A DNA stretch of 64,000 bases from Rhodovulum adriaticum (GTDB taxonomy: Bacteria > Pseudomonadota > Alphaproteobacteria > Rhodobacterales > Rhodobacteraceae): NCBI RefSeq assembly GCF_004345735.1, contig NZ_SLXL01000002.1:310001-374000 (forward strand), read 5' to 3'. Made by a program: the position numbers and the translations under genes. The notes beneath the pieces were generated by a model. The model worked only from the letters and a program-made list of their open reading frames with translations. It was not told where the DNA came from and made no database searches. Position 1 is the stretch's first letter. The number at the start of each line of letters is the position of its first letter. Below, piece after piece: positions 29,697-35,080 of this stretch.

Positions 29697-31628
29697 ATGG
29701 GCCAGATCGACATCACCTTCCCCGATGGTAACGTCAAAGCGTTCGAGGCCGGGATCACCCCCGCCGAGATCGCCGCAGGCATTTCCAACTCTCTGGCGAA
29801 AAAGGCGATTTCCGCCAATGTGAACGGCGCCCACTGGGATCTGCAATGGCCGATCACCGAAAATGCCGCCGTCGCCATCAACACGATGAAGGATGACGAA
29901 CCGGCGCTGGAACTGATCCGGCACGACCTGGCCCACATCATGGCCCGCGCGGTTCAGGAAATCTGGCCCGACGTAAAGGTCACCATCGGCCCCGTGATCG
30001 ACAACGGCTGGTATTACGATTTCGACCGGGAAGAGCCCTTCACGCCCGAGGATCTTGGCCAGATCGAGGCCAAGATGAAAGAGATCATCAACCGCCGCGA
30101 TCCCGTTACCACCGAAATATGGGACCGCGACCGGGCGGTCGCCTATTACGAGGCGAACGGCGAACCCTACAAGGTGGAACTGGTCGGCATGATCCCCGAG
30201 GACCAGCCGATCCGCATGTATTGGCACGGCCACTGGCAGGATCTGTGCCGCGGCCCGCATCTGCAACACACGGGCCAGGTGCCCGCCGATGCGTTCAAGC
30301 TGATGAAAGTGGCCGGCGCCTACTGGCGCGGCGACAGCGACCGGCCGATGCTGCAACGGATCTATGGCGTGGCCTTCAAGACCCGGCAAGAGCTGAAGGA
30401 TTACCTGACCTTCCTGGAAGAGGCCGAAAAGCGCGACCATCGCCGCCTGGGCCGCGAGATGGGGCTGTTCCATTTCGAGGAGGTGGCGCCCGGCTCCGTC
30501 TTCTGGCACCCGCATGGCTGGCAGTTGTTCCAGACCCTGATCGGCTACATGCGCCGCCGCCAGGAAGCCGCCGGTTATGTCGAGGTGAACTCACCCGACA
30601 TCATGGAGCGCGCGCTTTGGGAAAAGTCCGGCCACTGGGAGAACTACCGCGCCAACATGTTCCTCGCGCAGACCCAGGATGATCGCGACTATGCGCTCAA
30701 GCCGATGAACTGTCCGGGGCACATGCTGATCTATGGCCAGGGCGTCAAAAGCTACCGCGATCTACCGTTGAAGATCGCGGAATTCGGCAAGGTCCACCGC
30801 TATGAACCGTCCGGCGCCCTGCACGGCCTGTTGCGCGTGCGCAGCTTTACCCAGGACGACGCGCATATCTACTGCACGCCCGATCAGCTGACCGAGGAAT
30901 GCCTGAAGATCAACGACCTGATTCTGTCGATCTACAGCGATTTCGGGTTCGAGGACGTGCGTATCAAGCTCTCGACCCGGCCCGAAAACCGCATCGGAAG
31001 CGATGAAAGCTGGGACCGGGCCGAAGACTCGCTCCGCACCGCGCTGGACAGCGCTGGCCATGATTACACGATCTTCGAAGGGGAAGGCGCGTTCTACGGC
31101 CCCAAGCTTGAATACGTGCTGCGCGACGCGATCGGCCGGGATTGGCAATGCGGCACCTTGCAGGTCGATTTCAACCTGCCCGAGCGGTTCGGAACGACCT
31201 ACGTGACACAGGCAGGCGCGCGCGAATACCCGGTCATGTTGCACCGGGCGCTCTTCGGGTCGCTTGAGCGTTTCATCGGCATCCTGATCGAGAACTTTGC
31301 AGGCAAGCTGCCGTTCTGGCTGGCCCCGCGCCAGGTGGTCGTGGCCTCTATCGTGTCGGATGCCGACGATTACGTGTACGAGGTGGTCAACGCGCTGCGC
31401 GAACGCGGGATCCGGGCCGAGGCCGACATCCGCAACGAAAAGATCAACTACAAGGTGCGCGAGCATTCCGTCGGCAAGGTGCCGGTGATCCTGGCCATCG
31501 GCCAACGCGAGGTCGAAGAGCGCACCGTGACCGTGCGCAGGCTGGGCGAGAAGCAGACCAAAACTGTAACATTGGACGAAATCGTCGCCGACCTGGCAGT
31601 CGAGGCGACCCCGCCCGACCTGGCCTGA
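29697..31628 (+). CDS. thrS: Threonyl-tRNA synthetase
   Basis: A 643-residue class IIa aminoacyl-tRNA synthetase. It starts with a TGS domain ([19 protein letters not shown]), then the editing domain with its HxxxH in [12 protein letters not shown]. The catalytic core has [11 protein letters not shown] (zinc Cys) and motif 2 [12 protein letters not shown], and the C-terminal anticodon-binding domain follows. The ATG at 29697 follows GAGGAG; an in-frame start 30 bases earlier lacks support. A clear terminator follows, so thrS is separate from the bufferin operon downstream. Confidence 0.97.
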
Positions 31629-31650
31629 TCGCAATCCCCCACCCTATTGA

Positions 31651-31685
31651 GAAGGCGTCGGTTTTCCGGCGCCTTCTGCATTTTT
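31651..31685 (+). terminator. Rho-independent terminator of thrS
   Basis: An 11-bp stem with one G-U pair, GAAGGCGTCGG (31651-31661) and CCGGCGCCTTC (31666-31676), has a TTTT loop and is followed by TGCA and TTTTT (31681-31685). It lies 22 bases after the thrS stop and isolates thrS from the bufferin operon. Confidence 0.85.
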
Positions 31686-31789
31686 GCAGACCTCCTGTGC
31701 GCGCACGCGAAAGGTCACGCCCCGTCACGGCGGCGTGCTGCACCGGCCTGTGACTGGCAGTTGAACGACGCTCCGCGCTCACTTGGCCC

Positions 31790-31808
31790 TGTCGCAAGGG
31801 ATGCGACA
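31790..31808 (+). promoter_or_regulatory. Inverted repeat upstream of bufA (candidate operator or leader hairpin)
   Basis: A perfect dyad, TGTCGCA-N5-TGCGACA, lies 26 bases before the bufA start codon; outside the arms a further CC/GG pair matches after one mismatch. Its position just ahead of the ribosome-binding site suits either a repressor site or an mRNA hairpin. No convincing sigma-70 promoter is visible upstream, which leaves room for an alternative (ECF) sigma factor as known for related operons. Confidence 0.45.
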
Positions 31809-31834
31809 TGGGAAACCCCAAGGGAGAGTAAGAC

Positions 31835-32125
31835 ATGAGCAACACCAAGACCACGCTGGCGCTGGCCGGCGCCCTGACTGCGGCGATCGCCGCGCACACC
31901 GCCACCCCCGCCGCCGCGCAGGCGAACGAAAAATGCTACGGCGTTTCGCTGGCGGGCGAAAACGACTGTGCCGCCGGCCCCGGCACCACCTGCGCGGGCA
32001 CCTCCAGCGTCGATTACCAGGGCAACGCCTGGTCGCTGGTCCCCGCTGGCACCTGCGAAACGATGGACCTGCCGGGCGATCGTATGGGCTCGCTTGAGCC
32101 GCTGATGCGCGACTTGCCGTCCTGA
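31835..32125 (+). CDS. bufA1: Bufferin precursor peptide, DUF2282 type
   Basis: A 96-residue exported peptide of the DUF2282 (BufA1/GigA) family. Residues 1-30 are a signal peptide with cleavage expected after AAAQA. The mature part carries exactly four Cys (34, 45, 53, 74) in the family contexts [24 protein letters not shown] and VPAGTCE. In characterised bufferins such Cys are converted to 5-thiooxazoles by the neighbouring DUF692 oxidase, and the product binds copper in the periplasm. That is literature knowledge; modification here is inferred. The 22 residues after the last Cys ([15 protein letters not shown]...) make a longer tail than I remember for the family. GGGAG precedes the ATG. 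First gene of a four-gene operon. Confidence 0.88.
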
Positions 32126-32134
32126 TCGGATATC

Positions 32135-32160
32135 CGGCCCCGGGCACAGCCCCGGGGCCG
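32135..32160 (+). terminator. Strong intra-operon hairpin between bufA and bufB
   Basis: A perfect 10-bp stem, CGGCCCCGGG (32135-32144) and CCCGGGGCCG (32151-32160), with a 6-base loop sits in the 57-base gap after the precursor gene and 22 bases before the bufB start. It lacks a T-run, so it is more likely an mRNA-stabilising or attenuating structure that raises precursor expression above the enzyme genes than a full terminator. Confidence 0.5.
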
Positions 32161-32182
32161 CCATCATTCAACGGAGGACGCC

Positions 32183-33034
32183 ATGCTCGACACGACACAC
32201 CCCAGCCTGCCGCCGCGGCCCGGCGTCGGTTTCAAGGCACAGCATTTCAGCGACATTCAGGCCGATCCCGGCCCGGTCGCCTGGCTGGAAATCCACGCCG
32301 AGAATTACATGGGCGACGGCGGCCGCCCGCTGGCCCAACTGCGCGCGCTGGCCGAACGGTTCCCGATTTCGGTTCATGGGGTGGGCCTGTCAATCGGGGG
32401 GGAGGGGCCGTTGGATACCGACCACCTGGCGCGGCTGAAACATCTGGTGGACTGGCTGAACCCCGCCAGTTTTTCCGAACACCTGGCCTGGTCCACCCAC
32501 GAGGGCGCCTATCTGAACGACCTGCTGCCCCTGCCCTATATGCAGGACACGCTGGCCCGCGTCTGCGATCACATCGACCGGGTGCAGCATACGCTTGGCC
32601 GGCGGATGCTGCTGGAAAACCCCGCGACCTATCTGGAATTCGCGGAAACCGAGATGACCGAAACCGACTTTCTGGCCGCGATCGTGCGGCGCACGGGCTG
32701 CGGGCTGTTGCTGGACGTGAACAACGTCCACGTTGCCTGCACCAATCGCGGCGCCGACCCGGTGGCCTATCTCGACGCCCTTCCGCTGGATCAGGTTGGC
32801 GAAATTCATTTGGGCGGGCACGATGCCCAGCAGGATGAACATGGTAATCCCCTGCTGATCGACAGCCATGGCGCACAAGTGGCCGATCCTGTCTGGGCGC
32901 TGTACGCCCATACAATCGCGCGGGGCGGCATCCGCCCCACCCTGATCGAGTGGGACACCGACGTGCCCGACTGGCCGGTGCTGGCCGCCGAGGCCGCGCG
33001 CGCCGCCACCCTTGCCGCCGAGGTTGCGGCATGA
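32183..33034 (+). CDS. bufB: Multinuclear non-heme iron oxidase BufB (DUF692/MNIO)
   Basis: A 283-residue TIM-barrel of the DUF692 family, which holds two or three iron ions and oxidises peptide Cys residues. Likely metal ligands sit in [76 protein letters not shown] and LIEWDTDVP, so all the usual clusters are present. The ribosome-binding site is GGAGGACGCC. The stop overlaps the next start (ATGA), coupling it to bufC. Characterised relatives modify DUF2282 precursors together with the BufC partner; the assignment to this substrate rests on operon context. Confidence 0.92.
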
Positions 33035-33786
33035 GCGGTCAGCACGCCTTTGCCGCGGCCCTGCTGGCGCCGCGGCTGGACCCGCCTGCGGGGCTGCACG
33101 GGCGGGGCGGGCGCGGGGCCGGACGCCGGTTCGACATCTACCGAAACAACGTGGTGGCCAGCCTGATCGCCGCGATGGAAACCGGGTTTCCCGTGGTTCG
33201 GGCCCTGGTCGGGGCAGAGTTCTTTACCGCGATGGCCGGGGAATTCGTGCGTGCCCACCCGCCGAGCTCGCCGCGGCTGATGCTCTATGGCACGGCCTTT
33301 CCCGTGTTTTTGGCCGCGTTCGCGCCGGTTGCGCATCTGGGCTACCTGGCCGATGTTGCGCGCCTGGAACTGGCCTTGCGCGAAAGCTATCACGCCGCCG
33401 ATGCCACACCGCTGGACCCGCGGATACTGACCACATACACCGCCGAGGATCTGGCACGCATGCGGTTGCGCCTGGCCCCCGCGTTGCGGCTGATCCGGTC
33501 CGACTGGCCGGTCCTGGGGATCTGGCAGGCCCATCACGGCGGACGCCCGCCGCAGCCGGGCCCGCAGGACGTGTTGATCGCGCGGCCCGGTTTCGATCCC
33601 GTGCCCCTGCTGCTGCCACAGGGAGGCGGGGCCGTGATCGCCGCGCTGAAAGAGGGCAAATCGCTGGGCTCGGCACTGGAATGCGCGGATTCAGAATTTC
33701 AGGATTCCGATATTCTAGAGCTTTTGAACATTCTTCTGAAACATGGCGCGATCTGCGGCTTTCAGGGTGAGGGACACAATGCATAG
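33031..33786 (+). CDS. bufC: MNIO partner protein BufC (DUF2063-type N-terminal domain)
   Basis: A 251-residue protein. The N-terminal DUF2063-type DNA-binding-like domain contains [34 protein letters not shown] and a [13 protein letters not shown] segment. In MNIO systems this domain recognises the precursor; the name is historical. The C-terminal half has [14 protein letters not shown] and ends in a helical [13 protein letters not shown]...[11 protein letters not shown] module. Start at 33031, overlapping bufB. Its last bases are A/T-rich, in contrast to the rest of the gene, and overlap the DoxX gene by 8 bases. Confidence 0.87.
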
Positions 33787-34354
33787 CACTATAAAAAAAT
33801 ATGAAAATTTCATACCGTCTATCGAAGAGAGAAGCGCAAAGCCGATCTTGACGACACTCGTGCGTTTCACTTTTGCTGCATCTTTACTGATCTACTTCTG
33901 GGCCTCCGCCCTGACCAAGCATGGCGACGGCCCGTTGGGCCTGATCCAACCCGCCCTAGGGGCGTATGCGCAGATCTTCCCCCGCGCGATGGCGGCGGCG
34001 GGGTTTGATGTGGGTGCGCTTGCCCCCTGGCAGCACGCGGTCGTCATCGCCGGCACCTGGGCCGAATTCCTGCTACCCGCACTGCTGCTGATCGGGCTTG
34101 CAACGCGACTGGCCGCGCTTGGCATGATCGGGTTCGTGTTGGTGCAGACCGCGACCGACCTGATCGGGCACGGCGCGCTGTCCGACCCGGTGACCTTGGG
34201 CGCGTGGTTCGATCGGATGCCGGATGCGGCGATTCTGGACCAGCGGTTGATCTGGGTCACGCTGCTGGCCGTGCCCGCGCTGCTGGGGGGCGGGCCGCTG
34301 TCGGTGGATGGCTGGCTGCAACGCCGCCGCGCCGCTTACAGCAGGGCGGCCTGA
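33779..34354 (+). CDS. bufD: DoxX-like membrane protein of the bufferin operon
   Basis: A 191-residue inner-membrane protein of the DoxX family with four hydrophobic helices. These include FTFAASLLIYFWASALT, AVVIAGTWAEFLLPALLLIG and LGMIGFVLVQTATDLIG. The first 25 residues ([16 protein letters not shown]) are hydrophilic and encoded by unusually A/T-rich DNA. The start at 33779 overlaps bufC by 8 bases. DoxX proteins often accompany bufferin operons (GigD/BufD) and are thought to be part of redox or electron-transfer membrane complexes; its exact role is unknown. The 3' end overlaps the convergent reductase gene by 19 bases. Confidence 0.85.
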   Translation: MHSTIKKYENFIPSIEERSAKPILTTLVRFTFAASLLIYFWASALTKHGDGPLGLIQPALGAYAQIFPRAMAAAGFDVGALAPWQHAVVIAGTWAEFLLPALLLIGLATRLAALGMIGFVLVQTATDLIGHGALSDPVTLGAWFDRMPDAAILDQRLIWVTLLAVPALLGGGPLSVDGWLQRRRAAYSRAA

Positions 34355-34662
34355 ACCTCCGGCCCCCAGCCCAGATACAGATCGCCGCCCGCATCGATGA
34401 CCGGCCGTTTCATCAGCGCGGGGTGGGCGGCCAACAGATCGGCGGGCGGGGCGGCACGCTCATCTTCGGACAGGCCCCGCCAGGTGGTGGAACGGCGGTT
34501 TATCAACGCCTCCTCACCAAAGGCGCCAAGGAAACGGCTCAGGTCTTCGCCGCTCATCGGTTCTGCGCGCACATCGCGGAACGTGACTGGGTGACCAGTG
34601 GCCTCCAGTGCGCGGCGGGCCTTTCGGCAGGTGTCACAGTTTTTCAGGCCAAAGAGGATCAT
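34336..34662 (-). CDS. ArsC/Spx-family thioredoxin-fold reductase
   Basis: A 108-residue thioredoxin-fold protein of the ArsC/Spx superfamily, YffB-like. The redox motif is MILFGLKNCDTCRKARRAL (CxxC at about 9-12), and the RxPV-like loop is KRPVIDAGG. The family includes glutaredoxin-linked arsenate reductases and redox regulators; with no ars genes nearby, arsenate reduction should not be assumed. A strong AAAGGAGG ribosome-binding site lies 6 bases before the ATG at 34662. It is convergent with, and overlaps, bufD by 19 bases. Confidence 0.88.
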   Translation of the reverse strand: MILFGLKNCDTCRKARRALEATGHPVTFRDVRAEPMSGEDLSRFLGAFGEEALINRRSTTWRGLSEDERAAPPADLLAAHPALMKRPVIDAGGDLYLGWGPEVQAALL

Positions 34663-34873
34663 CCTTGCCTCCTTTGTCATCACACGGTGGCTGCGACGGC
34701 GGCGCGACCGCTCGGCGCTTGCTTTTGCCCCGATTCGCCCCCCATCCTCAATGTGTGACGGCAGACGACTGGACGACCGCTCCTCCTTCAGGGGCAGCCG
34801 GAAGACTGGAAGACCTGGCTGTGACCTACCGTGCCGCAATCCCGCGGGCGCGGAACGACGATAGGAGTGGAAG

Positions 34874-35080
34874 ATGCCTACCGGCACCGTGAAATGGTTC
34901 AACACCACCAAGGGCTATGGCTTTATCGCCCCCGATGATGGCGGCAAGGACGTTTTTGTGCATATCTCGGCGGTGGAACGCGCCGGCATGACCGGCCTCG
35001 CCGACAACCAGAAGATCGGCTACGAACTGATCGAGGGCCGCGACGGCCGTCAATCTGCGGGCGACCTGAAAGCGCTGTAA
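34874..35080 (+). CDS. Cold-shock domain protein
   Basis: A 68-residue single CSD protein (CspA family). RNP1 is KGYGFIAP and RNP2 VFVHISAV, both RNA/ssDNA-binding. AGGAG precedes the ATG by 7 bases. The 211-base gap upstream, shared with the divergent reductase gene, is long enough for the structured 5' leader typical of csp genes, but I cannot identify it by eye. A clear hairpin follows. Confidence 0.95.
   Translation: MPTGTVKWFNTTKGYGFIAPDDGGKDVFVHISAVERAGMTGLADNQKIGYELIEGRDGRQSAGDLKAL

Follow-up and report, generated by a model that had tools for sequence, protein, structure and literature searches.

A bufferin-type operon of Rhodovulum adriaticum and a palindromic bufA promoter element that may mark sigma-F-independent control in Rhodobacterales

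In Caulobacter vibrioides, the buf1 operon (CC3254-CC3257) encodes, in this order, a DUF2282 peptide, a DUF692 protein, a DUF2063 protein and a DoxX protein (PMC3511200). Its product, bufferin 1, is assigned with 5-thiooxazole (PMC13097082, section 10; thiooxazole is also stated in PMC12452194, sections 4 and 14), and in Buf1 the central cysteines are described as modified while the first and last ones form a disulphide (PMC12452194, section 14). Sigma-F drives the operon from a GTAACC-N16-CGAA promoter and is itself restrained by the DUF1109 protein CC3252 (PMC3511200). The GIG operon of Cupriavidus metallidurans and Legionella pneumophila combines DUF2282, DUF692 and a regulator-annotated partner, as does the locus described below, and the available passages on it report that the Legionella promoter is induced by Au and Cu, with no product shown (PMC5413113). 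An earlier note on the DNA analyzed here had stated that both the Caulobacter and the Legionella operons make thiooxazole-containing peptides; the sources above state this for the Caulobacter product, whereas for Legionella those passages of PMC5413113 give promoter induction by the two metals only.

The window, by which we mean the whole stretch of 64,000 nucleotides that was analyzed (Rhodovulum adriaticum, assembly GCF_004345735.1, contig NZ_SLXL01000002.1, positions 310,001 to 374,000), carries four packed plus-strand genes at 31835-34354, bufA, bufB, bufC and bufD, in the order of Caulobacter buf1 (Table 1). The reading frames lie where the earlier note had placed them, with overlaps of ATGA between bufB and bufC and of 8 bases between bufC and bufD; its start of the operon, 31790, falls in the leader 45 bases 5' of bufA, where the left arm of an inverted repeat (31790-31808) lies. 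The genome (99.93% complete) holds a single match each for PF05114, PF10048 and PF09836. Since at least 579 of the at least 594 genome-contig stretches that matched a search pattern encode a BufB relative, the operon is more than a chance arrangement.

Table 1. Features of the bufferin-type locus and its surroundings in the window (positions are those of the window).
Feature	Position	Strand	Remarks
Palindrome of six half-sites	31715-31764	+	About 50 bp, centre 31739, 5' of bufA; outside the span of the earlier note
Half-sites of the palindrome	TCACG 31715-31719, TCACG 31725-31729, CGTG 31734-31737, CACC 31741-31744, TGTGA 31749-31753, TTGA 31761-31764	+	Window letters
TGGC within the palindrome	31755-31758	+	Window letters
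Putative -10-like box	31779-31784	+	TCACTT, a poor match to the TAnnnT of relatives; position suggested by a profile of 53 promoters
Inverted repeat TGTCGCA-N5-TGCGACA in the leader	31790-31808	+	3' of the -10-like position; second operator or 5' hairpin
bufA, bufferin precursor (DUF2282)	31835-32125	+	96 aa; PF10048, 86.8 bits (cut-off 22.4)
bufA-bufB gap	32126-32182	+	10-pair hairpin at about 32135-32160
bufB, multinuclear non-haem iron oxidase (MNIO, DUF692)	32183-33034	+	283 aa; NF050167, 383 bits (cut-off 310)
bufC, DUF2063-RRE partner of MNIO	33031-33786	+	251 aa; PF09836, 94 bits (cut-off 27.2)
bufD, DoxX/HvfX-like membrane protein	33779-34354	+	191 aa; DoxX, 22.4 bits (cut-off 23.6)
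arsC-like reading frame	34336-34911	-	Adjoins the operon
Cold-shock gene	34874-35080	+	Adjoins the operon

BufA exceeded the cut-off of Pfam DUF2282 (PF10048), and its cysteines 34, 45, 53 and 74 were kept in 114 of 114 aligned copies, which upholds the earlier reading of this gene as a Cys-containing DUF2282 peptide. Inspected by eye, the N-terminal part ahead of the first Cys has a Lys, a run of hydrophobic residues and an end rich in Ala, and resembles a Sec signal peptide. The BufA2 family (Bufferin 2, with 6 or 12 Cys) was not matched (NF050166, 19.1 bits versus a cut-off of 60), BufA having four Cys only, and comparison with PDB sequences gave no match up to E 1. By analogy with Caulobacter bufferin 1, the BufA of the window would be modified and would bind copper. 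At some other loci (L034, L035, L090 and L025, the last on the same contig as L036), tandem bufA copies lie 5' of a single bufB; some clusters with tandem bufA copies are described in section 14 of PMC12452194.

BufB scored above the cut-offs of the NCBIfam equivalog NF050167 (MNIO_BufB; Table 1) and of Pfam PF05114 (MbnB_TglH_ChrH; 353 bits, cut-off 25). Its best PDB match was 3bww (E 3.8e-43), followed by the DUF692 chain of 8hci and by MbnB chains, with 8 distinct sequences up to 0.001. Residues H65, H100, E145, D178, N181, H209, D227, H229, E256 and D258 were each at least 98% conserved across 110 sequences; matched by motif and spacing, they correspond to the iron ligands reported for VcMbnB (His55, His91, Glu135, Asp165, Asn168, His194, Asp209 and Glu238, with His211) and to its base Asp240 (PMC8888699), in line with the DUF692 oxidase with all ligand clusters that had been proposed.

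BufC matched Pfam DUF2063 (PF09836; Table 1) above the cut-off and NCBIfam HvfC below it (41.8 bits, cut-off 142), and phmmer found no match to it in the PDB, the best E value of a BufC profile being 0.22. An AlphaFold2 model of BufC (15 sequences, mean pLDDT 87.8) was matched by Foldseek to the TglHI structures 8hci (E 5.5e-06) and 8hi7 (9.1e-06) and to 3dee (NGO1945; 3.4e-04), the sole three matches up to E 0.001, with TM values of 0.52-0.59 against TglI, for which chain A of 8hci and 8hi7 was taken by length, and NGO1945. TglI and NGO1945 are both named as MNIO partners (PMC12452194, section 18). BufC is thus, by its predicted fold, a PME-type-1 partner made of DUF2063 and an RRE-type domain, with a length typical of that type (about 250-260 residues), and the DUF2063-type partner of the earlier note is supported by family match and model alike. 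On two MAG contigs (L094:6632-7569 and L108:6641-7604), bufC is apparently split into two frames, by assembly error or decay.

The fourth gene had been called a DoxX membrane protein. Its position is conserved: among 113 sources scanned (the window and 112 loci, the latter including the window's own locus in three overlapping copies), all four genes were found in 79, bufD alone was absent in 31, two had bufA and bufB only and one had no bufA, many incomplete sources being loci of about 3 kb that end inside the operon. The family name is less secure, since BufD falls just below the cut-off of Pfam DoxX (PF07681; Table 1) and reaches 23 bits for NCBIfam HvfX (NF050144, cut-off 80). With a DUF2282 peptide that has four Cys, a BufB above its equivalog cut-off, a partner of DUF2063-RRE type by predicted fold, and the gene order and overlaps, the bufferin-type assignment holds, and the locus is very probably, judged from its sequence, a bufferin-1 (Buf1) operon, that is, a further member of an already described type.

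Compared by families, this locus and Caulobacter buf1 share the same four families, the same order and the same type of Cys pattern. HvfABC/HvfX and fontiphorin (EGKCG-type captophorins) likewise pair an MNIO with a DUF2063 partner and an HvfX-type protein, and BufB matches PRK05409 HvfB at 239 bits, but their precursors carry EGKCG repeats where the precursor of the window is a DUF2282 peptide with four Cys, and the proteins of the window stay below the cut-offs of HvfB, HvfC and HvfX. MbnB/MbnC (methanobactin) and TglH/TglI (3-thiaglutamate) include enzymes of BufB's superfamily with equivalent iron ligands, and the BufC model matches TglI, but precursor and product differ and BufB reaches 59 bits for MbnB (cut-off 325). 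It is in its promoter that this copy departs from the studied Caulobacter one: the latter has a sigma-F promoter and a DUF1109 anti-sigma protein, whereas the genome of the window has no NrsF match and its bufA promoter is palindromic.

Among the best 80 of the at least 579 BufB relatives, the top identity was 78% and the titles, inspected by eye, were Rhodobacterales genera or wider labels; DUF2282 was present in 56 of 101 genomes, own genome included. Within flanks of up to 6 kb, thrS lay upstream in 70 of the 80 named loci, and an arsC-like gene and a cold-shock gene lay downstream in 66 and 64 of them, respectively. By these sequence comparisons, the operon occurs commonly among Rhodobacterales, sits as a rule between thrS and arsC-like/csp genes, and looks like an ordinary, stably placed chromosomal operon. 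The neighbours were surveyed in 81 sources (the 80 named loci and the window), where 75 families occurred in at least 5 sources; among the 45 of these 75 that were viewed by eye, no regulator recurred next to the buf operon in most loci. An ArsR-like family turned up in 14 sources and a MarR-like one in 8, and the window has neither.

The 220-base upstream region of the window lacks the GTAACC-N16-CGAA pattern. To compare bufA promoters, the upstream regions of the 113 sources were used, minus the three copies of the window's own locus, L055 (no bufA) and L071 (no start), which left 108. In 54 of these 108 regions, a match to the motif TGTGANTGGC missed at most one of its 9 fixed positions, with about 2 such regions expected from mononucleotide shuffles. 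The conserved columns around it read TnACR, TnACG, CGTG, CAC, TGTGAnTGGC and GTGA, followed by TAnnnT at the place expected for a -10 box. The best centre of symmetry lies 10 bases 5' of the anchor (3.53, the next being 2.40), and 26 sites, each taken on both strands, can be aligned gap-free. The six half-sites pair around 31739.

A matrix was then built from 50 of the 53 anchored sites, pairwise less than 80% identical and with the window excluded. The site of the window scored 54.9, and no other place on either strand of the 64 kb reached 5. The sites had first been picked by the anchor, which makes the matrix partly circular where the relatives are concerned, although these were given leave-one-out scores; the score of the window and the scans of whole genomes suffer less from this circularity. 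Scores were at least 12 in 76 and at least 28 in 65 of 105 upstream regions (three pairs identical in their last 100 bases were merged). Among the named promoters (78 of the 80 loci, the other two having no bufA or no start), 64 scored at least 12 and 14 scored lower, only some of these 14 being of sigma-F type. Outside the bufA upstream regions of the other loci, a single place scored at least 14. It is an extra copy of the palindrome between bufA and bufB of Actibacterium sp. 188UL27-1 (L050:5902-5974), which scored 33.5, the copy ahead of bufA scoring 22.9.

Whole genomes were scanned with models derived from these sites, R1 from the 46 of the 50 matrix sites that scored at least 28 and R2 from 26 of those 46, each on both strands. 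With R1, the bufA site of the own genome had an E value of 1.5e-13 and the next distinct place one of 0.0127. Among 16 genomes scanned with this model, 14 had a match at E up to 0.001 and the best one lay just upstream of bufA in all 14; of the other two, G009 has no match to DUF2282 and G025 has a promoter of sigma-F type. R2, a symmetric model of 51 positions, gave matches below 0.005 in 13 of 20 genomes, all at bufA; weaker matches, from 0.02 upwards, were at bufA of G022 and G050 and at other places of G057, G030 and G049. The second place in the own genome (G000:C8:52836-52864, L114; E 0.0127, or 0.0275 with the symmetric model) matches the core of the palindrome weakly, lies by eye between a flavodiiron protein gene and rnfA and is the sole other match below E 0.1; it is only a candidate second target. 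Thirteen other weak places were viewed by eye, those that could be placed being mostly inside likely coding sequence and one (L143) upstream of a gene, and none was accepted as a target.

The sigma-F pattern in a relaxed form (GTAAC-N-N14..17-CGAA) was found in 13 of the 108 upstream regions, 12 of which scored below 0 for the palindrome; the remaining one, L067, scored 37.7, and its sigma-F pattern was read as chance because of its 15-base spacing and its closeness to the gene. The DUF1109 family, which we take to be the present-day NrsF (PF06532), in agreement with the Caulobacter control, was absent from the genome of the window at E 0.001, and the control was detected. Thirty genomes were classed by promoter, in classes written down after the NrsF scan, as 7 of sigma-F type (6 exact and G049 by eye with one mismatch), 16 of palindrome type and 7 of neither. 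NrsF was found in 7/7, 0/16 and 0/7 of them, respectively (Fisher test of sigma-F versus palindrome class, 4e-06, kinship of the genomes ignored), a contrast that is not a set of independent events since the genomes are related. Moving G049 and G030 to the class of neither changed these counts to 6/6, 0/15 and 1/9; G030, classed as palindrome type, had the lowest score (2.2) and its bufA site was missed by model R2. In 6 of the 7 sigma-F-type genomes, the exception being G098, an NrsF match lay at most 1 kb from a DUF2282 match. Two loci from the genus of the window (L008 and L013, in G008 and G007) have a bufA promoter that lacks both the palindrome and the exact sigma-F pattern, and their genomes gave no NrsF match; they are perhaps a third type of control.

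These sequence patterns suggest a regulatory swap, in which sigma-F/NrsF would have been replaced by another regulator at those bufA genes that bear the palindrome. Because the palindrome has six half-sites and no good -35 box is present, this would be an oligomerising regulator. It would most likely be an activator, which would agree with the poor -35 region; a repressor is the less likely alternative. Our reading, which we hold to be somewhat probable, is that most Rhodobacterales have taken the bufferin operon out of sigma-F/NrsF control and placed it under a dedicated, undescribed stress regulator. This regulator would bind the palindrome of about 50 bp, whose six half-sites read about TnACR-N5-TnACG-N4-CGTG-N3-CACG-N4-YGTGA-N7-GTnA and of which each genome has a single strong copy, at bufA. 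Among the open-licence literature matches listed, none dealt with bufferin promoters or with the function of bufferins in Rhodobacterales. This lineage-specific control element is the new part, with no description found among those same matches.

Two further elements lie near bufA. With up to 2 mismatches allowed, the leader repeat is the window's only match to its pattern, and one or more matches turned up in 25 of 100 shuffles; its exact spaced form occurred, among the 112 loci, only in L001-L003, which are the window's own locus. At the same place in 41 promoters, the best arms averaged 4.8, compared with 3.8 in shuffles, whose 100 means did not exceed 4.15. The hairpin in the bufA-bufB gap (-25.2 kcal/mol, z -1.36) is not significant alone, 20 of 200 shuffles being as stable. 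Its credibility comes only from the relatives, since the gaps of 73 out of 96, unlike in sequence, had z below -2 (60 shuffles each), the gap of the window, at -1.69, not being among them. It may set the peptide-to-enzyme ratio by leaving more bufA than bufB message. No known RNA element was found in 31600-34500 at the gathering threshold.

As a working model, BufA would be synthesised with a Sec-type signal peptide and presented by BufC, through its RRE-like domain, to BufB, the multi-iron oxidase, which would turn the two central cysteines (C45 and C53) into 5-thiooxazoles. The peptide would then be exported, its outer cysteines C34 and C74 would form a disulphide, and the mature form would hold surplus copper in the periplasm, with BufD aiding a membrane step. 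An oligomerising regulator, likely an activator, would act at the palindrome in place of sigma-F/NrsF. Of this model, the present analysis shows the genes, their order, their families, the conserved residues and the predicted fold of BufC; modification, export, disulphide and copper binding are carried over from Caulobacter.

Concerning function, the operon could be a bufferin operon by descent that serves another stress (Au, Cr, Zn, sulphur or oxidative), copper binding being secondary. The Caulobacter operon was indeed studied through the sigma-F response to chromate (PMC3511200), the doxX genes are discussed as suggesting protection from other stresses (PMC12452194, discussion), and a promoter unlike that of Caulobacter may imply that the signal differs too. 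We nevertheless consider this unlikely, as bufferins are reported to enhance growth under copper stress by chelation (PMC12452194) and the GIG promoter of Legionella answers Cu as well as Au (PMC5413113).

Concerning the palindrome, we give slightly less credence again to the idea that it is no operator but a structural DNA or RNA element, or a remnant of common descent without function. It is strongly self-complementary, its carriers are all related bacteria and no known regulator goes with it. However, half-site columns reach up to 2.0 bits in the profile of 53 promoters against at most 0.12 in the flank (-45 to -37), among 50 sites pairwise less than 80% identical; the palindrome sits upstream of the -10-like position; L050 has a further copy between bufA and bufB; and promoters of sigma-F type do without it, as the negative scores of 12 of the 13 pattern carriers indicate.

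In many Rhodobacterales, which are common in the sea, bufferin operons appear as a standard chromosomal trait with a stable place. If the proposed regulatory swap is true, this locus exposes a second, independent way to sense the stress that bufferins answer, and a 50-bp site with one strong match per genome would be a handle on the regulator and, through it, on what naturally induces bufferins in lineages other than the sigma-F ones.
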